From Bacteroidota bacterium (GTDB lineage: Bacteria > Bacteroidota > Bacteroidia > Chitinophagales > Chitinophagaceae), in contig JAFDYG010000413.1 in assembly GCA_018267545.1 (NCBI GenBank), forward strand, positions 1 through 39,559: a stretch of DNA of 39,559 nt, written 5' to 3'. Below are positions 9,612 to 38,642 of the stretch, in pieces. The first letter of the stretch is position 1; each line of letters begins with the position of its first letter. The translations under genes were made by a program, and so were the position numbers. The notes beneath the pieces are model-generated. The model did no database searches and had not been told where the DNA came from. It saw only the letters and a list, made by a program, of their open reading frames with translations.

Positions 9612-9703
9612 GGTATTGATATTAATGTCGTTATCAGGATTTGTCGTTGAAGTGACGGACGTGTATAAAGGAAGGAAATTTATTTTAGAAATATTTACAC
9701 TAT

Positions 9704-9754
9704 TCAACAAAGTTCTATAGTGGAAGTTTTTTTAAAAAAGTGCGGCTACTTTGC
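9704..9754 (+). promoter_or_regulatory. Promoter/operator shared with ilvD, susC copy
   Basis: A 27-base block at 9704-9730 (core TATAGTGGAAGTTTT) matches 5531-5557 at 24 of 27 positions, and TACTTTG at 9747-9753 sits at the same distance as TACATTG before ilvD; the flanking C on both sides is also conserved. A weaker segment at 9688-9702 resembles the 26356/33365 element (GAA, ATTT, CTA conserved) at almost the same distance from the TTTG, so susC may answer to both regulators; that second point is weak. The region also drives the divergent RraA-like gene. Confidence 0.6.
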
Positions 9755-9761
9755 ATTACTC

Positions 9762-9777
9762 AAACGACTTGCATATG
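9762..9777 (+). promoter_or_regulatory. Start-codon element AAACGACTTGCATATG at susC
   Basis: Close variant (one insertion, one substitution) of AAACGATTGCTTATG found at the GH115 and FAS1 starts and of AAACAATTGCTATG at the GH51 start. It ends with the initiation codon in a predicted leader of about 15 bases. Function unknown; possibly a translation-initiation element. Confidence 0.4.
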
Positions 9778-12700
9778 AAAAAAGATTGCCACGCTATCTC
9801 CAAGCGTTATCTAATCAGCTATCTATTGTCCTTTCTTCTTATCGCCCTCGTTGGCAGGGCGCAGGGGCAGACGGTTACGGGAACGGTACTGGATGATGAA
9901 AAGAAGCCGGTTGCGGGTGCGACGGTGACGGTAAAAGGTACGTCCAGGTCAGCAGTTACCAATAATGCAGGTCGTTTCAGCATCGCAGGTACTGCGAACG
10001 ATGTACTGGTCGTCAGCCATATCGGGTTTATGACGTTGGAATCGGCGCTTGGAGGGAAAACCGATATCGTGATTGGTCTTGTAAAGGGTAGTCGTAAGGA
10101 CCTCGATGTGATCATCGTAACGGCGCTTGGTATCAAGAAGGAGGAGAGGAAATTGGGTTATGCGGCGACCTCGGTGAAAACGGATGAGCTGGTCACCAAC
10201 CGGACGACCAATATCGGGGAGTCTCTGGAAGGCAGGGTTGCGGGTTTGAATATCACGCCTCCTGCTGCCGGAGCCGGCGCCAGCACGCAGATTCGTTTGC
10301 GCGGACAGGTCGGGTTCTCAGGTTCGACCAACTCGCCGCTGATCGTCGTCAACGGTCTTCCGATGGACCAGGGTGCGAGGGGTGTCGAGGGAGGCGGAAA
10401 CCTGCGTGACCAGGGTGATAACCTGCAGGTCGTCAATCCCGATGATATTGAAAGCATGACCGTATTGAAAGGATCCACTGCGTCGGCATTGTATGGTTCG
10501 AGGGCGGCTGCGGGCGCGATCATCATCACCACCAAGTCCGGTTCGAAAAATTCGGGGATAGGCGTCGAGTACACGTCGAGCTATACGGCGTTGAGGGCAT
10601 TGAATTATATGGATCAGTTTCAGACCGTTTATGGGTCAGGGATAGGGGGAAAGAAACCGACGTCGCAGGCAGATGCGGCGGGGAACGGTCAGTTCGGCTG
10701 GGGGGCTAAGCTGGATGGGGCGCCGACACCGATCTTCGATGGTTCGCTTCAGCCTTACTCCGCGTATCAAAACAGGCTTTTCGATTATTTGCAGACCGGG
10801 GCCAACTTCACCAACACGGTGGCGCTGTCGGGAGGCGGGCCGAAAGGCAGCTTCCGGGCCTCCTTTTCCAATACGGATGCGAAGGGTATCGAGCCGAGGG
10901 ACGAATACAAAAGAAAAGTATTCAATTTAGGATTCAATCAAAACATCACGGAAAAACTCAAGCTGGCGGTCAATATCAACTGGGCGAACGAGATCCAAAG
11001 CAATCCGCCGCAGGTGGGCGTACAGGGCGCGGGTTCGGTCAACTTCTTTACAAGGCTGGCGCTTTCGTTTCCTACGTCGGCTCTTAAAAATAGTGCGGTG
11101 AATCCTTCTAATGGAACGGAAATGCAGACTTCGGGATTTCAGGGGACTGTGCTCAATCCTTACTACGCCAATCAGGCCGGTCAGAACTGGGTGAACAACA
11201 GGGACAGGATACTGGGTACGGCTACGCTGCGGTATGACTTCACCGACTGGCTGTTTCTCCAGGGAAGGTATAATTACAATTATTCGATCAACAAAAATGA
11301 AAATCATGTGCCTTACGGTATCGGCACCAGCGTACCGACGAATGCGGATGGGACCTATAAGGGTTCTTACAGCATTGCGCAGGGAAAAAGCACGGAGGTC
11401 AATGCGGATTTTTTGCTGGGTGCCAGTAAAACATTCGGGAAGTTCTCGTTCGATGTGAGCGCGGGCGGCAACACCTACACGTCGGAAGGCGATAACCTGA
11501 ACGGCACCTCGGGCAACTTTGTGGTTAAGGATCTGTATTCGATAGCCAACGGGAATGTCAAGACCCAGACATATACCTATGGCAAGAGCCGGGTCAATTC
11601 GCTGTATGGATTGGCCGAAATAGGCTTCAACCGCTTCCTGTACATAAACGTTACGGGCAGGGAAGACTGGTTCTCGGTTTATAATCCGCGTAACAATCAC
11701 GTCTTTTATCCATCGATCTCCGGTAGTTTTATCTTCTCTCAGCTGCTGCCCAATGTGTCGTGGCTGAATTTCGGTAAGTTGAGACTTGCGGGTTCGAAGA
11801 CGGGCAGCGCGAATGGCGTCAGCACGTATGAGGGTTTGCTGGGCTATACGATCTCGCCGAACCCTTTCAATGGGCAGGTTACGGCGACGATCAACGGGGG
11901 GAATGCGCCGAATGCGTCGCTGACTCCGTTCAAGGCCGATGAAAAAGAAATCGGTTTGGATGTGCGGATGTTCAATAACCGGCTGCACGTCGATGTGTCG
12001 GCCTTTAGAAAGGTGACGACCGACCAGGTGCTTCCGGTCACGCTTTCGAATACGTCGGGTTATACGAACTCCAAGGCCAATCTGGCCTCGTTGAGGAATA
12101 GTGGTTTCGAGTCTTTGATCGAGTATACGCCGATAAGGACGACTCGTTTTAGCTGGACGACATCGTGGAACAACTCTTATCTCTCTACAAAGGTGCTGGC
12201 TATTTCACCGGGTGTCAATGACTTCCTTCTGCTTTATTTCAATGGCACGGGCAATGAGTTCCTGGGACAGATTCACTATACGGTGGGGCTGCCGATGAAT
12301 CAGTTGTATACGAGGACCTATTTGAGAGACGACAAGGGTAATATCCTGGTTAGCTCCACCGGCCGTTTGCTGGCGACACCCGATTATAAGCCGGTTGGCA
12401 GCTCTATTCCTAAATTCACCGGGGGATGGACGAACTATTTTACGTATAGAAATCTTTCTTTGGGGGTTTTCATCGACTACAAATTCGGCGGAAAGGTGAT
12501 GTCTTCCACTGCTTTGAATACGTTGAGGCAGGGGCTCTCCAAGGCTTCGCTGGTCGGCCGCCGGGATGGGGAAAATGGAATCGTATTCCCGGGCATCAAC
12601 CAGGGTACGGGGCAGGCGAATACAGTTGCGGTTACGGACCTGCAGGGGTTCTATGCGGACTATCGGAACCTTCAGATCGGGGACCCGTTTGTATTCAAAT

Positions 12701-22838: not shown

Positions 22839-26355
<3,517 letters not shown>

Positions 26356-26360
<5 letters not shown>

Positions 26361-26422
26361 ACATTTGTGCTAGTATTATTATCAAATGTGCGGCTGGGGG
26401 ATGGGGTGGGCGGATAGATTTG
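26356..26422 (+). promoter_or_regulatory. Candidate HTCS operator and promoter of the GH51 operon
   Basis: TTTGAACATTTGTGCTAG at 26356-26373 is identical to 33365-33382. TAGATTTG, an exact TAnnTTTG box, starts 59 bases after the element start (26415-26422), as in the other copy. ACATTTG (26361-26367) and CAAATGT (26383-26389) form a perfect inverted repeat with centres 22 bases apart; the second half is degenerate in the other copy. No -33 box is seen, which fits activator dependence. The element overlaps the GH43-GH95 stop codon. Confidence 0.7.
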
Positions 26423-26456
26423 TCTTTTCGTATGAACTGTCGGTTAGACATTTTTA

Positions 26457-26470
26457 AAACAATTGCTATG
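26457..26470 (+). promoter_or_regulatory. Start-codon element AAACAATTGCTATG at GH51
   Basis: Variant of AAACGATTGCTTATG (one substitution, one base shorter) ending in the chosen initiation codon. Because of the missing base the surrounding codons differ from the GH115 and FAS1 copies, so the similarity is at the nucleotide level and not from a shared peptide. Confidence 0.35.
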
Positions 26471-28483
26471 CCTGGACTTCTTTTTGGCCGACGGTGGCCT
26501 GCCGCTTTCTCTTTTTTTATTTTATTGTCTTTTATGGGTAAGGCTCAGCCGGTTGTCACGTTGAGAATGGATGGGACGGGGCATGCTGTTGCGCCGAAGC
26601 TGTATGGTTTGATGACGGAGGAGATCAATTATTCGTATGATGGGGGGCTGTATGGGGAGCTGATTCGGAATCGGGCGTTTAGGAATAATGCTATGACGGC
26701 GGATAACTGGTCGTTGATCGAGGACGGGGGCGCGAGGGGTAAGATGTCGTTGGACCGGCAGGAGCCGGTTGGGGAGGCGTTGCCTGTAAGCTTGAAGATG
26801 GAGGTGGCTGAGCCGGGGATGCGGACGGGGGTGGCTAATGAGGGATATTGGGGAATTCCGGTGAGGCCAAGGACAACTTATAGCGTTTCATTTTATGCGA
26901 AGGCGAGCAAGGCTGCTGCTTTGACGGTTTCGATAGAGAGTAGGGATGGGAAGAAGGTTTATGCGAAGGCGGAGAGTCCGGCAATCGGGGAGGGGTGGCA
27001 GCGGTACCGGATGACGCTGACTACGGCGGATGCAGGGGCAGTGAGTGCAGGAGGGATTGTGCCGACGGCGGATGCGAGGTTTGTGATTTCGGCGAAGGAG
27101 GCGGGGACGTATTGGTTTAGCCTGGTTTCATTGTTTCCTCCTACCTATAACAATACAAAGAATGGCAACCGGCAGGATATCATGCAGATGCTGGCGGAGA
27201 TGAAGCCGGCGTTTCTGCGGTTTCCGGGCGGGAATTACCTGGAGGGGGATTATTTCAGCACACGGTTCGACTGGAAGGCGACGGTCGGAGGATTGGAAAA
27301 AAGGCCGGGTCATCCGAGTCCATGGGGTTACCGGTCGACGGATGGGATGGGGCTGCTGGAGTTTTTGCTTTGGTGCGAGGATTTAAAGATGGAGCCGTTG
27401 CTGGCTGTTTTTGCGGGATACACCTTAAAGGGGGACTATTTCGAGGACCCCCGGTTTTTACAACCTTTTATCGATGAGGCGCTGGACGAGATCGAGTATG
27501 TCATGGGGGATGCTTCGACGAAGTGGGGGGCGGTGCGTGCGCGGGATGGTCATCCGGCGCCTTTTCCGCTGACGTATGTGGAGATAGGGAACGAGGATGG
27601 ATTCGACCGGTCGGGGAGCTATGAGAAGCGATATAATCTTTTCGCCGCGGCTATCCGCGCGAAGTATCCGAATCTGAAGCTTATATCGACGACGGGAGGA
27701 AAGAATGACTGGCTTTCGGCGCGTCATCCGCTGCCGAAGGCGGGGGCGGACGTGATAGACGAGCACTTCTACCGCAGTGCGATCGAGATGGAGGAGATGG
27801 CGACCTTGTATGACAATTATGACCGAAGTGGTCCGAAGATATTTGTGGGCGAATGGGCGAGCAGGGAGGGTTTTCCGACGACCAATCTGAACGCAGCGCT
27901 TGGGGATGCGGCTTTTTTGACGGGGTTGGAGCGTAATTCGGATTTGGTGATCATGTCTTGCTATGCTCCACTTTTTGTGAATGTGAGTCCTGGCGGTATG
28001 CAGTGGAAGTCCGATTTGATCGGGTATGATGCTTTGAATAGTTATGGTTCTCCTTCCTATCATGTGCAAAAGATGTTCAGCAATTATCTGGGTGATCAGA
28101 CGGTGTCTGTGGAGGGTAGAGATCTTCCGACGCAGGTCAAGAAGCCCAATTCAAAAGATTCTGCGGCTGGCGTAAAGCCGAAGACGATTCCGGCTATGTT
28201 TTTTTCTGCGACGAAGGATACGAAGAAAGGACTCGTTTATCTGAAGGTGGTGAATGCGACTTCTGTGGAGCAGGATGTAAAGTTTGTAGTGGAAGGTGTG
28301 AAGAGTGTCGTTTCGCAGGGTACGGAGGTTGTGCTTCGGTCGGGAAATCCAGAGGATACGAATACGATTGCCGAGCCGGGCAAGGTGGTTCCTGTGACGA
28401 GTGTGGTGAAGGGGCTCGGGAAGGATTTTAAAAGAAAGGTTGCGGCGTGGTCCGTGACGGTTCTTCAACTGCAAATAAAATAA
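26468..28483 (+). CDS. GH51-family alpha-L-arabinofuranosidase
   Basis: 671 residues from ATG 26468, where a signal peptide begins (ends SFMGKAQ); the frame is open further upstream to 26357 but that stretch contains the promoter. A jelly-roll/carbohydrate-binding-like region at about 60-210 (TTYSVSFYAKASK) precedes the TIM barrel, which starts PAFLRFPGGNYLEGD. Acid/base Glu376 (EIGNED) and nucleophile Glu462 (VGEWAS) are both present, so it should be an active retaining enzyme releasing L-arabinofuranose from arabinoxylan or arabinan. A C-terminal beta domain closes the protein. First gene of an operon with the GH43-tail protein (two-base gap) and the HTCS regulator, behind the candidate HTCS operator, so it probably responds to that regulator. 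Confidence 0.94.
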   Translation: MPGLLFGRRWPAAFSFFILLSFMGKAQPVVTLRMDGTGHAVAPKLYGLMTEEINYSYDGGLYGELIRNRAFRNNAMTADNWSLIEDGGARGKMSLDRQEPVGEALPVSLKMEVAEPGMRTGVANEGYWGIPVRPRTTYSVSFYAKASKAAALTVSIESRDGKKVYAKAESPAIGEGWQRYRMTLTTADAGAVSAGGIVPTADARFVISAKEAGTYWFSLVSLFPPTYNNTKNGNRQDIMQMLAEMKPAFLRFPGGNYLEGDYFSTRFDWKATVGGLEKRPGHPSPWGYRSTDGMGLLEFLLWCEDLKMEPLLAVFAGYTLKGDYFEDPRFLQPFIDEALDEIEYVMGDASTKWGAVRARDGHPAPFPLTYVEIGNEDGFDRSGSYEKRYNLFAAAIRAKYPNLKLISTTGGKNDWLSARHPLPKAGADVIDEHFYRSAIEMEEMATLYDNYDRSGPKIFVGEWASREGFPTTNLNAALGDAAFLTGLERNSDLVIMSCYAPLFVNVSPGGMQWKSDLIGYDALNSYGSPSYHVQKMFSNYLGDQTVSVEGRDLPTQVKKPNSKDSAAGVKPKTIPAMFFSATKDTKKGLVYLKVVNATSVEQDVKFVVEGVKSVVSQGTEVVLRSGNPEDTNTIAEPGKVVPVTSVVKGLGKDFKRKVAAWSVTVLQLQIK

Positions 28484-28485
28484 CG

Positions 28486-29328
28486 ATGAGAAAGATAAGG
28501 CTGGCTTTTTGGCTGTTGTTGCTGGGTACGGGTGGGGCGATGGGGCAGACGTGGACGGCGGATAATGGGAACGGCATGGAGGATGGGAAGGAGGCGTATG
28601 GGTATTCGCTTCGATTTTATGACCAGTACAGGCATAAGACGGTGATGCAGAAACTGCTATCGCCAAAGGTCAGGCTACGGGTCAGCTGTGATCTTGACAA
28701 GGAGGTTGCCTGGTTTAGCTATAGTGCAGATGGGATTGAGTTTGCCAGTGTTGGCGATACGGTGGGGCTGCCGTATCAGCTGAAGACGTTTCAGGGTGGG
28801 CGCTTTGCGCTGTTTGCGTATAATACGCAGGGTAAAGAAGGGGGAAGTATGGACTTTAATTCTTTTAGTCTGGTCGAGCCGATGGCTGACCGGTCGAAAA
28901 ATATTCCTGCGGGTAAGGTTATTACACTGACCAATCTGGCTACGGGCAATCCTGTGTGGGCGAATCCGCATGGGATGATGCATTCGGCGTGGGTGGGCTC
29001 GAAGGAGCGGAATGGGGTGGGGTGCCAGTTCAGGGTGTATGACCGGGGAAAGGGGAGGGTGGCGTTGGAGGCAATGAATGGGACGGGTTTTCTGACGGTG
29101 GTGGGGAAGGGATTGACTTCCGATGTGCGGTTGAAGAAGGAGGAGTCGGAGGGTAGCTTGTTTCAGTGGCAGGATATGATGAGGGGGGAGTGTATGTTGC
29201 TGTCGCTGCGGACGAATCGATTTGTCGGGCTGAGGCCGGATACGGGAGGACCATATGGGTCGGATTTTCCGGGGACGAGGCCGGATAGGAAGGATGGGAC
29301 GGTGTTTGGCTGGAGGGTTGTGGAGTGA
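28486..29328 (+). CDS. Secreted GH43-type C-terminal modules without a catalytic domain
   Basis: 280 residues from ATG 28486, two bases after the GH51 stop, with a signal peptide ending GGAMGQ. Residues 22-30 read TWTADNGNG, like the first mature residues before a GH43 propeller (compare ADNGDGTFTNPV in the GH10-GH43 protein). The sequence then jumps to MEDGKEAYGYSL, corresponding to MKDGDEAGLAVF in the C2 beta-sandwich near the end of that protein. RLRVSCDLDKEVAWFSYSAD and GRFALFAYNTQGKEGG match the rest of C2. Residues about 135-280 look like a beta-trefoil-type tail (GTGFLTVVGKGL, LRTNRFVGLRPD). The whole catalytic propeller is missing, with the frame intact. It may be a binding protein left after an internal deletion. 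Its stop overlaps the HTCS GTG start. Confidence 0.7.
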   Translation: MRKIRLAFWLLLLGTGGAMGQTWTADNGNGMEDGKEAYGYSLRFYDQYRHKTVMQKLLSPKVRLRVSCDLDKEVAWFSYSADGIEFASVGDTVGLPYQLKTFQGGRFALFAYNTQGKEGGSMDFNSFSLVEPMADRSKNIPAGKVITLTNLATGNPVWANPHGMMHSAWVGSKERNGVGCQFRVYDRGKGRVALEAMNGTGFLTVVGKGLTSDVRLKKEESEGSLFQWQDMMRGECMLLSLRTNRFVGLRPDTGGPYGSDFPGTRPDRKDGTVFGWRVVE

Positions 29329-32300
29329 GCCATAAGATTACGATATTATTTTTTGTTCTGCTTCCCTGGGCGGTCCTGGGACAGCGGGAGAATTACAATT
29401 TCATCAACTTCAGCAGTAGGGATGGGTTGTCTTCGAATACTGTCTATGCCGTTTTGAAGGACAGGTTCGGTTATATGTGGTTTGCGACGGATGAAGGGCT
29501 GGATAAATTCGACGGGATTAATTTTACGGTATATAGTCCTGAACCGGGAGATACGACGAGCATTTCCGGCAGGGCTATCCTGGCGCTGCACGAGGATGCG
29601 GCGGGGAATCTGTGGGTGGGTACGAATAAGGGGCTGTCGCTGTATGACAGAAAGAAGAATGCTTTCCGGAATCTGGATGTTACCTGGGGGGCTTCGGTGA
29701 GGGCGATTTGCAGCGATCATGCGGGGAATATCTGGATAGGGAGCTATGCGGGGCTGACAAGGTTCGAGCCTGTTTCGGGTAAGGTTAAACATTATGGGAC
29801 GGGTGGAAAACCGGGTAAGCTGGTGTCCAATACCGTTATCAGCGTTTTCGAGGATAGCCGGCGGCGGTTATGGGTGGGGACGAATGCGGGGCTTCATCTT
29901 TATCAGCCGGCGACGGATAATTTCTGTGTGTTTTCGGGAGAAGAGCCCGATTCTGCGTTGAGCGACAATATTATCAAATCGATTGCGGAGGATGGGGATG
30001 GGCGGCTTTGGATAGGGACGCAGGATGGGGGCCTGAATATGCTTTCGCCGGGGGCGAGGGGTTTCGTGAATTACAAGGGGAAGAGCAGCAGCAACCGGAT
30101 TTACTGTATCGTTCCGGATAATAGCGGAAGGCTTTGGCTGGGTACGGAGGAGGGATTGAATATTTTCGAACCCTGGTCGGGCAAGATCGAGAAGATATCG
30201 GGTGAGGCCCGGAGCAAGTATAGTCTGAAGGGAAAATCGGTTCGAAGCATCTGTGCGGACAGTAATGGGATTTATTGGCTGGGCACGTATCAGAGCGGGG
30301 TCAGCAAGTATGATAAGAATTTGACCTTTTTCAACCTGGTGGAGAGCGATCCTTTCGACCCGGCGGGTTTGAGCTCGCCCAAGGTGACGTCGTTTGCGGA
30401 GAAGGATGCGGAGAATATTTATGTGGGGACGGATGGCGGGGGGCTCAATCTGTATCATCGTCGTACCGGACTGTTCGATCATGTATCGTTAGGGGACAGG
30501 CGTTTGTCGGTAATGGCGTTGGAGAAGGACGGCAATGAGCTGTGGGTGGGGACCTGGCAGCAGGGGGTGTATGTGCTCGATGTTGTCAGCGGGGCGGTGC
30601 GTCACCTGGTGCAGGGAAATGGTCCGATGGGACTTTCCGGCAACGATGTCTTTTGTATCCGGAAGGACAAGCGTGGGAATGTATGGGTGGGGACTAACGG
30701 GAGGGGGGTGAGTGTTTATATGCGTGAGTCGGGTACTTTTCACCGCCTCGACGAACTTTTGTCGAAGGCGCAGGGATATAGAAATATGAACAATGCATTT
30801 ATCCGGGCGATAGAAGAGGATGATGCAGGCAATATGTGGATTGGTGTGTTGGGTCTTGGGGTGGTGATGATCGACCAGGAGTGGAAGACTTTCCGGGTCT
30901 TCAATCGTCGGAAGACGGGGTTTCAGCTGGAGGATGTGCAAACGGTGCTGCCTGCCGGAAATGGCGAGGTATGGGTAGGGACATCGGGGTATGGAGTCTA
31001 TAAAAGCGATTCGGTACAGGAGCATTGGATAGCTTATGGAACGGCCCAGGGCCTGGCGAACCCGACAACCTATAAAATGCTGGAAGACGATAGCGGCAAG
31101 ATCTGGATAACGACCAACAAGGGGTTGAGCTGTCTGGAGCCTGGAGGTTCAACTTTTAAGAATTACATTACCGATAATGGTTTACAGGGCAGCTCGTTTA
31201 TGCCTGGGTCGGGGTTGAAGACTTCCGGTGGGGAACTGTTTTTTGGCGGGCTTGAAGGATTCAATTATTTTCTGCCGTCGGTTCTGACCTATGACCGGAA
31301 TGTTCCTTCTATCGTATTTACCGGGTTAAAGGTTGCCAACGAGAGCGTAGTGCCGGGAGAGAAGGCGGCCCTTAGTGAGCATATCGGTGTGGCTAAGGAG
31401 ATACGGTTGGACTACAAGCAGAATTTTTCCATCGACTTTGCCGCGCTGGACTTTACGAGTCCCCGTGAATGCCAGTATCTGTATATGCTGGAAGGGTTCG
31501 ATAAAGGTTGGAATACGATAGGTGTGTCGAGGACGGCGGTGTTTACCAATCTTGACCCGGGCAGGTATACGCTCAAGGTAAAGGCGTATAGCCCAAACGA
31601 TTCGTGGACGACGCTGCCTGCTTCGATATCTATTTACGTCCGATTTCCGTGGTGGCGGACACCTTCTGCTTATGTGATTTATTTTTTGGTGATTGCCGCT
31701 GTTTTGTGGGGTGCGCGTTACAGGGCGATCAGGCGGGTACACCGGAAGTTTGCGGTAGAGCAGGAGCGGAAGAAGGTGGAAGACGAACGAAAGGAAGCGG
31801 AGCGGCAAAGGGTGTTCGATCAGGCCAAGATAAAATTTTTGACGAATCTAAGTCATGAGTTCCGCACGCCGATTTCGCTGATCATGGGTCCGGTGGAGAC
31901 GTTGCTGGACAAGGAAACGGATAAGGAGAAGAATGGGCAGCTTTTTATGGTGAAGAGGAATGCCCGCCGGTTGCTGAACCTGGTCAATCAGCTGCTGGAT
32001 TTTCGTAAGCTGGAAGAAGGGGAACATAAGCTAAATGTAACCGGGTGCGATATCGTCGGGTTTGTGAGGGAGGTGTCGGAGTCGTTCAGGGACCTGGCTA
32101 GCAGGCGGCACATCTGGTTTACGTTTCACAGCGAGATCGAGGGGTATTACACTTATTTCGATAAGGATAAGATGGAGCGGGTGTTGTTCAATTTACTGAG
32201 CAATGCTTTCAAGTTTACGGGAAAAGATGGCCAGGTCAGGCTGGATATCGGACAGACGGCTGGGACGAATGAGATTACTATCGGTATTTCGGATACGGGG

Positions 32301-33332
32301 ATAGGGATCTCTGCGGAGGAGCAGCGGAGGATATTCGACCCCTTCTACCAGGCAGAATCGGATGTAAGCGTAATGAATCAGGGGAGTGGGATTGGGCTTT
32401 CCATTTGCCGGGAGTTTGTGCGTTTGCATGGGGGGACGATCGAGGTTAGCAGTGTGTCGGGGAAGGGGAGTATTTTCATCGTGCGGCTTCCTTTGGAAAA
32501 ATTGGAAGAGGACTTAAGGCCGGAGATCATAGAAGAAGAGAAAACGAGTGTTTCGACGGGAGAGGGGCCGGTAACGGTGCTGCTGGTAGAGGACAATGAG
32601 GATTTCAGGACCTATTTAAGGGATTGTTTGGCGCCTTTTTATAAGGTGATCGAAGCGGTGGATGGAAGAGAGGGATGGCAAAAAGCTCTTTCCGGACATC
32701 CGCATGTGATCGTAAGCGACATAAATATGCCTTATATAAATGGTATCGAGCTGAGCAATAAGCTGAAGGCCGATAAGAGGACGGGGCATATCCCCATCAT
32801 ATTGTTGACGGCGTTGACGGGGGATACGCTTCAGCTGAGGGGGCTGGAGTCCGGCGCGGCCGATTATCTTACCAAGCCGTTCAGCTGGGAAATCCTGCAG
32901 GTCAAGATACGGAACCTGGTTATGTTGAATCAGAGCTTCAAGGAAACCTACAGCAAGCGGTTGAGTGTGGCTTCGAAGCCGGTGGATGTGCAGTCGGGGA
33001 GCGAGAATCTGTTGCTGACGATCACCCAATATATAGAGGATAATCTGAATAACGATTCGTTGTCGGTGGAGGAGCTGAGCAGGTATGTTTATGTGAGCAG
33101 GGGGACGCTTTATAATAAGATCGTCGAGCTGACGGGGGAGACGCCGGTGGAATTTATCCGCTCGGTGAGACTGAAGAAGGCGGTGGATCTTTTGGAGAAT
33201 ACCGATATGAAGATTTCAGAGATAGGGTATGCGGTGGGATTTGCCAGTCCGAATTACTTTACGCGGGTGTTTAAAGCAAAGTACAATATGCTGCCTTCGG
33301 AGTATGCGGTTCAGAAGAGGGTGGTGCGGTAA
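29325..33332 (+). CDS. Hybrid two-component system regulator (HTCS)
   Basis: 1335-residue inner-membrane sensor-regulator that activates polysaccharide utilisation genes. Order: signal peptide (about 1-20), two seven-bladed beta-propellers of short repeats (FGYMWFATDEGLDKF, GNLWVGTNKGLSLYD and many more) to about 660, a Y_Y_Y domain to about 760, a membrane helix near 778-797, a histidine kinase with His844 (NLSHEFRTP), N-box NLLSNAFKFTG, DTGIGIS and GSGIGLSI, a receiver domain with Asp1132 (VSDINMP) and Lys in YLTKPF, and an AraC-type DNA-binding domain from about 1235 (KISEIGYAVGFASPNYFTRVF). All catalytic residues are intact. It starts with GTG overlapping the previous stop (GTGA) and follows GH51, so it probably enhances its own expression. 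The periplasmic ligand would be an oligosaccharide from the target glycan. Confidence 0.97.
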   Translation: MSHKITILFFVLLPWAVLGQRENYNFINFSSRDGLSSNTVYAVLKDRFGYMWFATDEGLDKFDGINFTVYSPEPGDTTSISGRAILALHEDAAGNLWVGTNKGLSLYDRKKNAFRNLDVTWGASVRAICSDHAGNIWIGSYAGLTRFEPVSGKVKHYGTGGKPGKLVSNTVISVFEDSRRRLWVGTNAGLHLYQPATDNFCVFSGEEPDSALSDNIIKSIAEDGDGRLWIGTQDGGLNMLSPGARGFVNYKGKSSSNRIYCIVPDNSGRLWLGTEEGLNIFEPWSGKIEKISGEARSKYSLKGKSVRSICADSNGIYWLGTYQSGVSKYDKNLTFFNLVESDPFDPAGLSSPKVTSFAEKDAENIYVGTDGGGLNLYHRRTGLFDHVSLGDRRLSVMALEKDGNELWVGTWQQGVYVLDVVSGAVRHLVQGNGPMGLSGNDVFCIRKDKRGNVWVGTNGRGVSVYMRESGTFHRLDELLSKAQGYRNMNNAFIRAIEEDDAGNMWIGVLGLGVVMIDQEWKTFRVFNRRKTGFQLEDVQTVLPAGNGEVWVGTSGYGVYKSDSVQEHWIAYGTAQGLANPTTYKMLEDDSGKIWITTNKGLSCLEPGGSTFKNYITDNGLQGSSFMPGSGLKTSGGELFFGGLEGFNYFLPSVLTYDRNVPSIVFTGLKVANESVVPGEKAALSEHIGVAKEIRLDYKQNFSIDFAALDFTSPRECQYLYMLEGFDKGWNTIGVSRTAVFTNLDPGRYTLKVKAYSPNDSWTTLPASISIYVRFPWWRTPSAYVIYFLVIAAVLWGARYRAIRRVHRKFAVEQERKKVEDERKEAERQRVFDQAKIKFLTNLSHEFRTPISLIMGPVETLLDKETDKEKNGQLFMVKRNARRLLNLVNQLLDFRKLEEGEHKLNVTGCDIVGFVREVSESFRDLASRRHIWFTFHSEIEGYYTYFDKDKMERVLFNLLSNAFKFTGKDGQVRLDIGQTAGTNEITIGISDTGIGISAEEQRRIFDPFYQAESDVSVMNQGSGIGLSICREFVRLHGGTIEVSSVSGKGSIFIVRLPLEKLEEDLRPEIIEEEKTSVSTGEGPVTVLLVEDNEDFRTYLRDCLAPFYKVIEAVDGREGWQKALSGHPHVIVSDINMPYINGIELSNKLKADKRTGHIPIILLTALTGDTLQLRGLESGAADYLTKPFSWEILQVKIRNLVMLNQSFKETYSKRLSVASKPVDVQSGSENLLLTITQYIEDNLNNDSLSVEELSRYVYVSRGTLYNKIVELTGETPVEFIRSVRLKKAVDLLENTDMKISEIGYAVGFASPNYFTRVFKAKYNMLPSEYAVQKRVVR

Positions 33333-33364
33333 GTTTTGTTGTGAAGGCTTGTGTATCAATGAAA

Positions 33365-33431
33365 TTTGAACATTTGTGCTAGCAATTTAGTCAATCGTGA
33401 AAGGGCCGGAAGTGGTTGGTGAATAGTTTTG
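33365..33431 (+). promoter_or_regulatory. Candidate HTCS operator and promoter of the GH115 operon
   Basis: TTTGAACATTTGTGCTAG at 33365-33382, identical to 26356-26373, with an exact TAnnTTTG box (TAGTTTTG, 33424-33431) starting 59 bases after the element start, the same spacing as the GH51 copy. ACATTTG at 33370-33376 and CAATCGT at 33392-33398 occupy the inverted-repeat positions of the first copy (five of seven bases kept in the second half). Confidence 0.7.
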
Positions 33432-33439
33432 GAGGAGTG

Positions 33440-33454
33440 AAACGATTGCTTATG
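33440..33454 (+). promoter_or_regulatory. Start-codon element AAACGATTGCTTATG at GH115
   Basis: Identical over 15 bases to 38674-38688 in the FAS1 gene, with close variants at the susC and GH51 starts. It lies just downstream of the promoter box and ends in the chosen ATG. GGAGG at 33431-33435 is 16 bases before that ATG, too far for a usual ribosome-binding site. Confidence 0.4.
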
Positions 33455-36007
33455 TCTAAACTCCTTCTCCGGGTTCCCGGAATTTCTTTCCTGCTTTTAT
33501 TGATTGTAACGTTGCGTTTGCCGGCCCAGGACGTCACTGGGCTGCCGGCAACGCTCGTATATGACTCGGCGGTGTCGGCGGGTGATTTTCCGTTGGTGGA
33601 TGCCGGGGGCGCTGCGGTTTTGGAGTATGATGGGGAAGATTATAAGGGAGTTATAAGAGCGGCGGGTGATTTGAAGATGGATATCGAGCGGGTGACGGGG
33701 GTGAGAGAAGGCGGCGGACAGGGGAGGAAGGTTATTATTGGGACGATCGGGAAGAGCAGGCTGGTGGATGGGCTGGTGAAGAAGGGGAAGCTGGATGTGG
33801 GAGAGGTGAAGGGAAAGTGGGAAAGCTTTGTGATTCAGACGATAAAGGATGTGAATGGGGGGCCTGCGCTGGTTATTGCGGGCAGTGATAAGCGGGGAAC
33901 GATCTATGGGATTTATGAGCTGTCGAGGCAGCTGGGGGTGTCGCCCTGGTATTGGTGGGCGGATGTGCCGGTTAGGAAGAGGCCGGCGGCGTGGGTTGCC
34001 GGCGGCAGGTATGTCTGTCCGGGACCGAAGGTTCGTTACAGGGGAATTTTTATAAACGATGAGGCTCCTTGTTTTACGGGTTGGTCGAAGGAGAAATTCG
34101 GCGGGCGGAACAGCAAGATGTACGTGCATCTGTTCGAACTGCTGCTTCGTCTTCGGGCGAATTACTTTTGGCCGGCGATGTGGTCGAGCGCGTTCAACGA
34201 AGACGATCCGGATAATCCCAGGCTGGCGGACGAATATGGGATTGTCATGGGAACCTCCCACCATGAGCCGATGCTGCGCTCGCAGCAGGAGTGGGGGAGG
34301 AACAGGAAGAACTATGGGAATGGAGAGTGGAACTATGTTTCCAACAAGCAGGGGATACAGCAATTCTGGCGCGACGGTCTTCAGCGCAACAAAAATTACG
34401 AAAGCATATTGACGATGGGAATGCGGGGTGACGGCGACAAGCCGATGCCCGATGCGGGCAGCGCTGCGGAGAACTTCAAGGTGCTGGAGGGGATCATGGA
34501 CGACCAGCGGAAGATCGTTTCGGAGGTCACGGGTAAGCCGGCTTCGCAGACTCCGCAGGTGTGGGCATTATATAGCGAGGTGCTGGACTATTATGACCAG
34601 GGGATGAAGATACCGGATGATATGACGGTATTGCTTTGCGATGACAACTGGGGAGATGTAAGACGTCTTCCGGAGCTGGGCAAGCGTAAGCATCCCGGAG
34701 GGTATGGCATTTATTATCACGTCGATCTGCACGGGGCTCCAAGGGCTTACCAGTGGCTGAATATGACGCAGGTGCCTCATATGTGGGAGCAGCTGCAGCT
34801 TACCTATTCTTATGGTGTGGACAGGGTTTGGATACTGAACGTCGGCGATCTCAAGCCGATGGAGTATCCGATGAGCTTCTTTTTGGATATGGCGTGGAAT
34901 CCGGGCGCGTTTACGGCTGGTAATATTTCGGGGTATGGGAGAGGGTGGTGCCGCGAGCAGTTTGGCCCCGGACAGGCGGGTGAGGCGGCGCGGATACTCG
35001 ATGCGTACTGCAAATACAACAGCCGGGTTACGGCGGAGATGTTGAATGATAAGACGTATAACCTTGCTACCGGGGAGTTTCTGGGGGTGAGGAATGAATA
35101 CATGGCGCTGGAAGCAGAGGCGCTGCGGCAGTTTCTGACGCTTCCGGATTCGGCGAGGGATGCGTATAAGGAGCTGGTGCTGCATCCGGTGCAGGCGATG
35201 GCGAATCTCTACGATCTGTATTATTCTTTGGCTATGGATAAGAAGCTGGCGGGGGAGAAGGATACGGCGGCCAATTTTTGGGCGGACCGGGTGGAGTATT
35301 GTTTTAAGCGGGATGCGGAACTGAGCTATGACTATAATCACAAGATTGCGGGCGGGAAATGGAATCATATGATGGACCAGACGCATATCGGGTATGTGAG
35401 CTGGGATGAGCCGAGGGGAGGGAACAAGATGCCGGCGGTGGTGAGGGTGAAGGCGGAAGATGTCAGGAATGGAGGGTATGTATTCGATGAGAAGAATGGG
35501 GTGGCGGTGATGGAGGCGCAGCATTATTTCGAGGCGAAGAGTGGTAGTGGTGTTTCCTGGACGGTCGTGCCGGATCTGGGCAGGACGTTGTCGGGGGTGG
35601 CGCTGATGCCATATGCGGAGAAGACGGATAAGGCGGCGTTGATTTATAAAGTGCGGCTGGACCCGGCGGTTGCTTCGGTGCGGCTGCGGGTGGTATTTAG
35701 CTGTACGCTGCCGTTCAAGAACGGGGGACAGAGTGTTGCGGCGGCGTTCGATGGAGGAGGCGAGAAGAGCTGGAATATCAACGATCAGCTGACCTGGAAG
35801 AATAATTATAATAAAATGTATCCGGCTGCTGCTGCGCGGATCATCGAGACGGAGGTGGAGATGCCGGTTGGGAAGGGAGAGGATGGCGTGCATACGCTGG
35901 TCCTGCGGCCATTGGACCCGGGGGTGGTTTTTGAAAAGGTGATCGTGGATTGCGGAGGGTATGAGTCAACGCATTTGAAAATGCAGGAGAGTCCTTACAA
36001 ACGATAA
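33452..36007 (+). CDS. GH115-family xylan alpha-1,2-glucuronidase
   Basis: 851-residue exported enzyme that removes (4-O-methyl-)D-glucuronic acid from both internal and terminal xylose of glucuronoxylan. A signal peptide follows the ATG at 33452 (MSKLLLRVPGISFLLLLIV, ending RLPAQ). The family-specific core is clear: GRRVIIGTIG-like N-terminal domain region (RKVIIGTIGKS), RYRGIFINDEAPCFTGW, LLLRLRANYFWPAMWSSAF, GTSHHEPMLRSQQEW, TVLLCDDNWGDVRRLPE, YYHVDLHGAPRAYQWLN and DRVWILNVGDLKPMEYPM. Length and domain order (N-terminal alpha/beta, TIM barrel, C-terminal helical and beta modules) are those of complete members. GH10-GH43 follows after one base. It stands behind the second copy of the candidate HTCS operator. 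In-frame GTG and TTG codons upstream exist; the ATG gives the best signal peptide. Confidence 0.96.
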   Translation: MSKLLLRVPGISFLLLLIVTLRLPAQDVTGLPATLVYDSAVSAGDFPLVDAGGAAVLEYDGEDYKGVIRAAGDLKMDIERVTGVREGGGQGRKVIIGTIGKSRLVDGLVKKGKLDVGEVKGKWESFVIQTIKDVNGGPALVIAGSDKRGTIYGIYELSRQLGVSPWYWWADVPVRKRPAAWVAGGRYVCPGPKVRYRGIFINDEAPCFTGWSKEKFGGRNSKMYVHLFELLLRLRANYFWPAMWSSAFNEDDPDNPRLADEYGIVMGTSHHEPMLRSQQEWGRNRKNYGNGEWNYVSNKQGIQQFWRDGLQRNKNYESILTMGMRGDGDKPMPDAGSAAENFKVLEGIMDDQRKIVSEVTGKPASQTPQVWALYSEVLDYYDQGMKIPDDMTVLLCDDNWGDVRRLPELGKRKHPGGYGIYYHVDLHGAPRAYQWLNMTQVPHMWEQLQLTYSYGVDRVWILNVGDLKPMEYPMSFFLDMAWNPGAFTAGNISGYGRGWCREQFGPGQAGEAARILDAYCKYNSRVTAEMLNDKTYNLATGEFLGVRNEYMALEAEALRQFLTLPDSARDAYKELVLHPVQAMANLYDLYYSLAMDKKLAGEKDTAANFWADRVEYCFKRDAELSYDYNHKIAGGKWNHMMDQTHIGYVSWDEPRGGNKMPAVVRVKAEDVRNGGYVFDEKNGVAVMEAQHYFEAKSGSGVSWTVVPDLGRTLSGVALMPYAEKTDKAALIYKVRLDPAVASVRLRVVFSCTLPFKNGGQSVAAAFDGGGEKSWNINDQLTWKNNYNKMYPAAAARIIETEVEMPVGKGEDGVHTLVLRPLDPGVVFEKVIVDCGGYESTHLKMQESPYKR

Positions 36008-36008
36008 A

Positions 36009-38642
36009 ATGAGTATGATGAAAAATATTTTTTGGGTAGTTTTTTTGATGGCCTTTTTGTCGGGATATCGTGGTATTGCACAGGAGGCGCCGTCGCTGAA
36101 GGAGGCGTACAAGGATGATTTTTTGATAGGAACGGCGTTGAATATGTCGCAGGTAGAGGAGCGAAATCCGGCGGCGTCGGCGCTGATCGCGAGGCAGTTC
36201 AGCACGTTTACGCCGGAGAACAATATGAAGGCGGCGCTGATTCATCCGGGGTGGAACCAGTTTAATTTCTCGCAGGCAGATGAGATCGTGCAGTTTGCGG
36301 AGAAGTATCATTTGAAGGTCAACGGGCATACGCTGATCTGGCATAGTCAGCTGCCGATGGGTGTGGCGAGGATCCAGGATGCGGATTCGGTACGGCAGTG
36401 GTTTACGGGGCATATTACGACTGTTGCGGGAAGGTATGATGGGAAGGTTTATTCGTGGGATGTGGTGAATGAGGCGTTGAATGAGGATGGGACGCTGCGG
36501 AAGTCCGTCTTTCAGCAGAAGCTGGGGGACGATTATATCGTGGAGGCGTTTCGTCTGGCGCAGAAGGCTGCTCCGCATACGCAGCTTTATTATAACGATT
36601 ACAATATCGAGCATGGGAAGAAGAGAGAGGGGGCAGTGGAGCTGGTGAAGAAGATACAGGCGGCGGGTGTGCGTATCGATGGCGTGGGTATTCAGGGGCA
36701 TTGGAGTGCGGGAAGGGTTCCGCTGGAAGATATCGAGCAGAGTATTGTTGCTTTTTCGGCGTTGGGGGTGAAGGTCATGTTTACGGAGCTGGATCTATCG
36801 GTTCTGCCGAGTCCGCGGGGGCATAATACGGCGGATGTGAATCAGACGGCGGGATATGCGGATGCGTTGAACCCGTATGTGAATGGTCTGCCGGACTCGG
36901 CGCAGGCGTTGCTGGCGAATAGTTATGCCCAGCTGTTCCGGCTGTTTATGAAATACAAGGATAAGATCGGAAGGGTGACGTTTTGGGGGGTGGACGATGG
37001 GCAGTCGTGGCTGAATGGATTTCCGGTGAGGGGGAGGACGAATTATCCGCTGTTGTTCGACCGGCAGTTGAAGGCAAAGCCTGCTTTTTATAGAGTGATC
37101 GAGGCTGCGAAAGGTGGGGGCAGTGAGTTGGGGAGGGGTGGGGCCTGGGATACGGCCAGGGGTTGGGCGGAGCATGCGGATAATGGGGATGGGACGTTTA
37201 CGAACCCGGTGATTTTTGCCGACTATCCGGATATGGATGTGATACGGGTGGGGGACGATTATTACATGGTATCGACAACGATGTTCATATTTCCAGGGGT
37301 GACTGTTTTGAAATCGAAGGATCTGGTCAACTGGGAATATTGTTCGAATGCGGTGCCGAGGATGGATTGCAGCAAGTGTTACAACCTGGATAGCTGTAAT
37401 CGGTACCATCATGGGCAGTGGGCGACGAGCTTAAAATATCATAATGGACTTTTCTATCTCTTTTTCAATACGCTGGATGATGGGGGCTTTGTTGCTACGG
37501 CGACAAAGCCGGAGGGGCCGTGGAATTTGAGGCATCTGCCGAAGGGGTTTCATGACCCGGGGCTTTTCTTCGATGAGGACGGGAGGATTTACGTCGCGTT
37601 TGGTTATAATACGATTAGTGTTGCGGAGCTGGATGAGAATCTGGCGCCAAAGGGACCGGCCACGGTGGTCTTCAAGGGAGACCTGGCGGGTGGGCTGGAA
37701 GGGTCGCACGTGTACAAGCTGAATGGGTATTACTATTTGTATTCTACTTATGGCGGTGGAAATGGTTTTCAGGTGGCGCTGCGGTCGAAGAGTATCTATG
37801 GTCCATATGAGGAGAAGGTGGTGCTGCGGGACAGGGAGGGCTTGAACAGGGGGATACACCAGGGGGCGCTTATCCAGACGCAGACGGGGGAATGGTGGAC
37901 GATGCTGTTTTTAGACAAGGGGCCGTTCGGGCGTATGCCGAGTTTGCAGCCTGTGCGGTGGGAAGATGGGTGGCCGATTGCGGGTGTGGATGGGAAGGGT
38001 GTGGCTACGTATCGCAAGCCCAATGTGGGGAAGGCGTATGAGGCGGCGACGCTGCCGACTTCGGATGAATTTAACGAGGCCTCGCTGCCGATGCAGTGGG
38101 GCTGGAATCATAATCCTGATAGTTCGAGCTGGTCGCTTAGTAAGCGGCCGGGAAGTTTAAGGCTTACGACGGCGAAGGTCGTTGCCGACCTGCCGCATGC
38201 GCGCAATACGCTTACGCAGCGGATGTTCGGTTATTATTCGGATTCGGTTGCTTCTACTGCTACGACGAAGATTTCATTTTCGGGGATGAAGGATGGAGAT
38301 GAGGCGGGGCTTGCTGTGTTTCAGGACCCTTATGGGTATATCGCTGTAAGGAAGGTGGGGAAGAAGTTCCGGCTGGTGATGGTGAATAATGGGGCGGTGG
38401 TTGAAGAACGGCCCTTGGAGGGGAAGGAAGTGTATTTGAGGGCGGCGGCGGTGTTTGGTACGGGGAAGGCGAGGTTTAGTTTCAGCCCGGATAATATGGT
38501 GTTTACGGGGCTCGGGAATGAGCTGGCGATGCGGTTCAACCTGTCGATTTTCACCGGGAACAAGTGGTGTCTGTTCAACTATGCGACGAAGGGGGCGGGG
38601 GGATATGTGGACTTCGACTGGTTCAGGACGGGGCCAAAGTAA
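36009..38642 (+). CDS. GH10-GH43 fusion: endo-xylanase plus arabinofuranosidase/xylosidase
   Basis: 877-residue exported bifunctional enzyme. Signal peptide to about residue 24 (GIAQ). Residues about 30-370 are a GH10 endo-beta-1,4-xylanase barrel with acid/base Glu155 (WDVVNEALNED) and nucleophile Glu260 (FTELDL), plus TFENNMK-type (TPENNMK) and HTLIWHSQ substrate motifs. After a short linker (GGGSELGRGGAW) a GH43 domain, probably subfamily 12-like, runs from about 395 with Asp408 (ADYPDMD), Asp516 (FHDPGLFFDEDG) and Glu564 (GLEGSHVYK), and closes with a C2 beta-sandwich ending YVDFDWF. The pairing would cut the xylan backbone and trim arabinose or xylose in one polypeptide. It starts one base after the GH115 stop and is its operon partner. 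MSMMK offers two alternative ATGs close by. Confidence 0.95.
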   Translation: MSMMKNIFWVVFLMAFLSGYRGIAQEAPSLKEAYKDDFLIGTALNMSQVEERNPAASALIARQFSTFTPENNMKAALIHPGWNQFNFSQADEIVQFAEKYHLKVNGHTLIWHSQLPMGVARIQDADSVRQWFTGHITTVAGRYDGKVYSWDVVNEALNEDGTLRKSVFQQKLGDDYIVEAFRLAQKAAPHTQLYYNDYNIEHGKKREGAVELVKKIQAAGVRIDGVGIQGHWSAGRVPLEDIEQSIVAFSALGVKVMFTELDLSVLPSPRGHNTADVNQTAGYADALNPYVNGLPDSAQALLANSYAQLFRLFMKYKDKIGRVTFWGVDDGQSWLNGFPVRGRTNYPLLFDRQLKAKPAFYRVIEAAKGGGSELGRGGAWDTARGWAEHADNGDGTFTNPVIFADYPDMDVIRVGDDYYMVSTTMFIFPGVTVLKSKDLVNWEYCSNAVPRMDCSKCYNLDSCNRYHHGQWATSLKYHNGLFYLFFNTLDDGGFVATATKPEGPWNLRHLPKGFHDPGLFFDEDGRIYVAFGYNTISVAELDENLAPKGPATVVFKGDLAGGLEGSHVYKLNGYYYLYSTYGGGNGFQVALRSKSIYGPYEEKVVLRDREGLNRGIHQGALIQTQTGEWWTMLFLDKGPFGRMPSLQPVRWEDGWPIAGVDGKGVATYRKPNVGKAYEAATLPTSDEFNEASLPMQWGWNHNPDSSSWSLSKRPGSLRLTTAKVVADLPHARNTLTQRMFGYYSDSVASTATTKISFSGMKDGDEAGLAVFQDPYGYIAVRKVGKKFRLVMVNNGAVVEERPLEGKEVYLRAAAVFGTGKARFSFSPDNMVFTGLGNELAMRFNLSIFTGNKWCLFNYATKGAGGYVDFDWFRTGPK

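Follow-up and report, generated by a model that had tools for sequence, protein, structure and literature searches.

The locus analysed here raises the question of which DNA signal connects a hybrid two-component regulator (HTCS) with the glycoside hydrolase genes on either side of its gene, and whether two identical 18-mers are that signal. We analysed a window of 39,559 nt (positions 1–39,559, forward strand, of contig JAFDYG010000413.1, assembly GCA_018267545.1) from a Bacteroidota bacterium of the Chitinophagaceae, the genome of which (7.3 Mb, 94.7% complete) is referred to below as the own genome. The HTCS gene (29325–33332, + strand) encodes a propeller-type sensor, a HisKA and a HATPase_c domain, a receiver and an AraC-type DNA-binding domain in one chain (Pfam Reg_prop, Y_Y_Y, HisKA, HATPase_c, Response_reg and HTH_18), the composition that defines the class. 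On the same strand, it is preceded by a GH51-type alpha-L-arabinofuranosidase ORF (26357–28483; Pfam ASD1_dom and Alpha-L-AF_C) and by a protein with a partial GH43_C2 (concanavalin-like) domain (28447–29328) whose ORF overlaps both neighbours, and it is followed by a GH115 ORF (33416–36007, with an in-frame ATG at 33452) and a GH10-GH43 fusion (36009–38642; Pfam). Together, GH115, GH10, GH43 and GH51 suggest glucuronoarabinoxylan as the substrate, given the activities that we take these families to have. Further upstream, GH43 and GH95 domains (Pfam) are fused in one protein of 1173 residues (ORF 22839–26360).

The first copy of the 18-mer TTTGAACATTTGTGCTAG (site S1, half-site 1, 26356–26373, + strand) overlaps with its first bases the stop codon of the GH43/GH95 gene, and the second copy (site S2, half-site 1, 33365–33382, + strand) starts 33 bp past the HTCS stop codon. 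Both copies are exact. At 59 bp from either element start we found an exact TAnnTTTG, the −7 box of the Bacteroidota primary-sigma promoter (TAGATTTG at 26415–26422 for S1 and TAGTTTTG at 33424–33431 for S2, + strand), which confirms the two identical copies at fixed promoter spacing described in a sequence-only reading of this DNA. The listed TTG start of the GH51 ORF lies upstream of its promoter box, and the in-frame ATG at 26432 or 26468 is the likelier start. No third place in the window matches TTTGAACATTTGTGCTAG with up to 3 mismatches, and shuffles gave a mean of 0.00 matches (n = 100). The surroundings of S1 and S2 are 20% identical over the 60 bp preceding the element, 54% identical from element to box and again 20% identical past the box. 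The unlike flanks outside element and promoter point to constraint rather than duplication, and a duplicated segment as the source of both sites is ruled out by this low identity on both sides. A known RNA element was likewise rejected, as no Rfam family is found in the window at gathering scores.

Outside the window, the own genome contains just two further places that match TTTGAACATTTGTGCTAG with up to 3 mismatches. The reversed pattern, used as a control at 3 mismatches, also yields 4 places, so that the count by itself is no evidence, and it is the context and the closeness of the matches that count. At 1 mismatch, the 17-mer TTGAACATTTGTGCTAK finds 4 places in the own genome and its reversed control finds 0. 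One of the off-window places (S3, C514:3581-3598) has a divergent HTCS gene on one side and a stand-alone AraC-type gene on the other, with two GH43 genes adjoining, and its box points toward the AraC-type gene and not toward a glycoside hydrolase. The other (C418:27871-27888) leads a GH43 gene followed by an HTCS gene and stands back to back with a fifth, weaker site (C418:27922) that leads genes for GH115, GH10 and a SusC-like protein. In the genome, the paralogues most similar to the window HTCS are the two encoded at C514 and C418 (47% and 45–55% identical). Both off-window matches therefore lie at the closest HTCS paralogues and beside glycan genes, and frequent copies unrelated to such genes, which the earlier reading had named as a possible refutation, are not observed. 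All five own sites have TAnnTT at +59, with TAnnTTTG exact in three and TACCTTCA and TACTTTTA in the others. They lead GH51, GH115, GH43, GH115 and one AraC-type gene.

Each 18-mer is followed at +21 bp by a second, similar element in the same orientation (TATCAAATGTGCGGC at 26380–26394 for S1, and a degenerate AGTCAATCGTGAAAG at 33389–33403 for S2, + strand), so that the sites consist of two similar direct half-sites about 21 bp apart, as in HTCS operators. Scored across the five own sites, the 21-bp direct repeat, a spacing expected beforehand from the literature, comes first with 36 of 75 letters; the next best direct shift scores 28, and the best inverted offsets score 32 and 31. The inverted partner that had been proposed as the architecture is thus beaten, if by a modest margin, and appears to be a secondary reading of the half-site core ACA-WWW-TGT, in which it is also visible because this core is nearly palindromic. 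Among 34 direct shifts, 21 is on top for the five own sites, for the seven training sites defined below and for 12 further sites, a set for which direct shifts only were compared, and of which 9 were picked by half-site 1 and box and 3 by the full score including the second half. The consensus of 29 sites reads tTTnaACATTTGTgCtAt, then TTT, then aCAaatgnncc. Half-site 2 occupies the stretch in which, at the usual spacing of the −33 element to the −7 box, the −33 element is expected, and in S1 it lies roughly at this position. The earlier remark on the lack of a visible −33 box is true of all seven training sites, none of which has TTTG at 18–22 bp before the −7 box; TTTG occurs at 17 bp before the box in own site S4 and at 25 bp in S3. 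Its absence would fit an activator-dependent promoter (−7 and −33 consensus of Bacteroidota promoters: PMC7366714).

We combined these features into a composite model (two half-sites offset by 21 bp, a gap of ~20 bp and the −7 box), trained on the five own sites and two sites of a Chitinophaga MAG (L026). The null comprised four simulated 400-kb sequences, one strand each; its top score was 20.3, and the cut-off was set at 22. S1 and S2 score 55.8 and 51.7, and the rest of the window stays below 12 on both strands. A weaker, gapped match that had been reported before susC (9688–9702) does not stand up to this comparison, with a composite score of at most 4.8 on that strand, and no TAnnTTTG with up to 1 mismatch starts within 9700–9790, before susC. 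In the own genome, the 14-base core GAACATTTGTGCTA matches at 19 places with up to 2 mismatches, among which five composites score at least 44, these being themselves training sites of the model, and the other 14 at most 12.1. A third half-site pattern finds 9 own places, namely the same five and four without a composite. At the 27 loci of other HTCS matches in the own genome (L085-L111; 129,196 bases, with ~1.5 kb to either side; one is a second piece of the C418 HTCS), the top score is below 16.

Conservation was assessed in 98 genomes of the family (own included), 22 of which, the own genome counted, contain an HTCS match at E ≤ 1e-200. These yield 40 HTCS matches, 37 of them in other genomes, and we examined wide regions around the best 19 of the 37, picked by HTCS similarity. 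In the Chitinophaga MAG, whose HTCS is 56% identical, one site lies ~30 bp past the HTCS ORF and leads a GH43 gene, and a second is found before SusC on the opposite side of the HTCS gene. With half-site 1 alone (up to 4 mismatches), the box lies at 57–59 in 9 of 17 matches in the 19 regions (seven at 58, two at 59), all confined to four regions, and 30 shuffled motifs place it there in 3 of 315 matches. The composite exceeds 22 at 19 sites in 12 of the 19 regions, including one site with a poor box (L142 12076). The first downstream ORF, available for 18 of these sites, encodes GH43 (4), GH98 (2), GH115 (1), esterases (3), SusC-like proteins (2), an HTCS (1), AraC-type proteins (4) or a sigma factor (1). 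As for the own five, the sites thus stand before glycan-utilisation genes of an HTCS locus, glycoside hydrolases, esterases or SusC-like proteins making up 12 of the 18 annotated genes. In seven of the 19 regions a clear site is absent (L143, L144, L146, L151, L154, L155 and L158). L144, L146 and L154 are borderline with scores of 21–22, and in L151 the HTCS gene is followed by a half-site at 2 mismatches without a correctly placed box. L143 and L144 are without a clear site despite encoding the DNA-binding domains closest to that of the window HTCS (71% and 70%); L144 comes from the only further genome of this genus among those drawn. Motif drift, or a site outside the fetched stretch, is possible in these regions. 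The predicted conservation at orthologous loci is therefore borne out in part of the draw, above a null of 20.3 in 12 of 19 regions and at the same place in the Chitinophaga orthologue. Divergent back-to-back sites, with GH115 behind one and GH43-HTCS or HTCS behind its counterpart, occur in two genera (L006 9840-9990 and L147 12172-12208).

We further performed a scan that was not seeded on HTCSs. The 17-mer at 1 mismatch finds 16 matches in 11 of the 98 genomes, compared to 7 for the reversed pattern. By composite score, they split into nine at 34.7–55.8 (four of them own) and seven at 10.0–15.7, which look like chance; two of the latter sit in the HTCS-bearing genomes G022 and G084. Full composites account for 5 of the 12 non-own matches (three in G006 and one each in G015 and G002), all in HTCS-bearing genomes. 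In G006, one strong site lies ~180 bp upstream of the HTCS gene itself, in support of autoregulation in this relative. Three strong matches lie outside the 19 regions and lead a LacI-type gene (L161), a SusC-like gene (L166) and a gene with no Pfam match (L172). When direct repeats were sought without a motif before the 230 noncoding TAnnTTTG boxes of 56 HTCS loci, shifts 20–21 showed only a slight excess (means of 0.52 and 0.54 versus 0.18 overall), which stems partly from L026 itself; the highest cells lie at a distance D of 33–36 from the box, unlike the sites described here.

These results make it very probable, as far as sequence comparison can tell, that S1 and S2 are candidate operators, used as activator sites, of the HTCS encoded at 29325–33332. 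The best motif score per locus rises with the resemblance between the DNA-binding domain of the local HTCS and that of the window HTCS (Spearman 0.74, n = 56, from 77 loci of which 59 had a domain match and three training loci were dropped, with relatedness not corrected for). This correlation argues against ownership of the site by another regulator, either the stand-alone AraC-type protein at C514 or an AraC-type protein of the window, with the HTCS as a mere neighbour. Such ownership would agree with the position of S3 at the head of a stand-alone AraC-type gene, an arrangement found alike at five loci (own C514, L142, L149, L150 and L152), and with the presence of three AraC-type genes in the window. 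We nevertheless regard it as unlikely, because the HTCS is the common feature of the three own loci, because the annotated genes beside the sites at C418, L140, L145, L147 and L157 include no stand-alone AraC protein (annotation being partial there), and because the recognition helices of the stand-alone proteins, compared by eye, are unlike those of the window HTCS and closer to other HTCS classes.

A general carbon regulator, CRP-like or similar, could also place one site type before many carbohydrate genes; up to 30 such genes per Bacteroides genome have a predicted CRP-like palindrome upstream (PMC3878776). The own genome contains only five full composites among the places examined, and the CRP-like consensus printed in that paper is a different palindrome, so that control by a general regulator rather than by one sensor appears very improbable. 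Even less credit is due to the view that the identity of S1 and S2 reflects recent duplication or chance. The four own places of the reversed pattern lend it some colour, and against it stand the dissimilar flanks, the fixed box position and the recurrence of the composite in other genera.

For the preferred reading, in which the HTCS acts at S1 and S2, we propose the following sequence of events. A periplasmic xylan-derived oligosaccharide would activate the membrane-bound HTCS dimer, the two AraC-type domains of which would bind the direct repeat with its half-sites offset by 21 bp. As the repeat ends ~20 bp before the −7 box, half-site 2 would substitute for the missing −33 element, and the HTCS would recruit RNA polymerase as an activator. 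S1 would drive GH51, the small GH43_C2 protein and the HTCS itself, a positive feedback, and S2 would drive GH115 and GH10-GH43. A single operon behind S1 is probable, because the GH51, GH43_C2-protein and HTCS ORFs overlap, and on the basis of these overlaps the positive autoregulation that had been suggested for the HTCS is likely. Since sites of this type also stand at the loci of the two closest HTCS paralogues, the three loci may be cross-regulated.

Several parts of this proposal have counterparts in Bacteroides, where HTCSs are a major regulator class for glycan use (PMC11253607). There, the half-sites of HTCS motifs are repeated directly, on average 21 bp apart (PMC3878776). The B. thetaiotaomicron motifs belong to the same AraC-type HTCSs, consist likewise of two direct half-sites averaging 21 bp, stand before glycan genes of the regulator's own locus, and are related where the HTCSs are related (Ravcheev et al. 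2013, PMC3878776). The sites described here differ in that they come from another family and, as judged from the text of that study, apparently have another sequence. A fixed −7 box position is a feature here that the relevant passages of PMC3878776 do not state. A further difference is that three HTCS loci of the own genome share a single site type. In gel shifts, the arabinan HTCS BT0366 retards DNA from upstream of BT0365 and from the stretch separating BT0366 from BT0367, and it is reported to stimulate its own transcription (PMC5061871), a precedent for the positive feedback proposed here; its ligand is different, and its binding is experimental, that of the window HTCS being predicted from sequence.

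By ChIP, an intact HTCS binds DNA, and the fructose HTCS BT1754 gives its strongest signal at the 3′ region of its own gene (PMC3404733), which resembles the placement of S2 after the HTCS gene. BT1754 has a different sensor domain, and its own promoter is described as weak and constitutive (PMC3404733). The influence of HTCS-bound DNA regions on regulation is left open by the same paper, in the parts that concern us here, and HTCSs bind DNA in a manner dependent on phosphorylation and on release from the receiver (PMC11253607). The passages of PMC11501099, PMC10766802 and PMC12125979 that we consulted contain nothing on HTCS sites, and in searches of main texts of the open-licence literature we found neither a fixed repeat-to-box distance nor the motif itself.

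Many related HTCS loci in other genera have this type of tag too, with an almost identical spacing to the promoter box. A wider proposal, which we advance tentatively and rate at slightly less than an even chance, is that a fixed promoter grammar for HTCS activators extends across the Bacteroidota (half-site 1 core ~54 bp before the −7 box, and half-site 2, 21 bp later, in place of the −33 element), and that some xylan loci may contain a relay via a small AraC-type protein with a degenerate or missing receiver. Genes for such proteins stand beside HTCS genes and under an HTCS-type site at L005 2670-3494 (− strand), L149 12381-13190 (+ strand), L142 12110-12907 (− strand), L150 7256-7777 (− strand) and L152 7295-7654 (− strand). 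In the AraC-type proteins of C514, L149 and L142, a receiver-like part is present but lacks the acidic pair found in the HTCS receiver, and at the presumed position of the phosphate-accepting aspartate C514 has D, L149 has S and L142 has L; the proteins of L150 and L152 have little or no receiver. This suggests a relay in which the sensor switches on the gene of a second regulator whose product is mostly not phosphorylated itself. In L153 (12464-13379), a composite site lies ~300 bp before a gene of the sigma-70 family (region 2 and 4), where a relay or a coincidence is possible.

HTCS direct-repeat operators are already known, and what most deserves specialist attention here is the spacing rule, together with the possible relay. 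Defined half-sites at a fixed distance from the −7 box allow prediction of the genes under a given HTCS, including in environmental species without genetics, and they offer direct mutations for testing; if the spacing rule is general, it provides a simple tool for regulon searches.

In more distant clades, eight HTCS loci of Pedobacter and Mucilaginibacter show the same spacing with other letters and scores of 20.5–26.5, some at the edge of the null. Two Bacteroides or Phocaeicola loci score 30.4 and 27.6 with an exact box, and the site at L061 leads genes for a melibiase, a GH127 and a SusC-like protein. L079 and L081, which also exceed 20, may be chance matches. At L036, L038, L039, L041, L042, L043, L051 and L069 (at about 1300–2800), 21-bp repeats of the type ACATTTKTTATAG are accompanied by the box TAACATTG at nearly the same distance, and at L038 repeat and box lie ~220 bp before a SusC-like gene.
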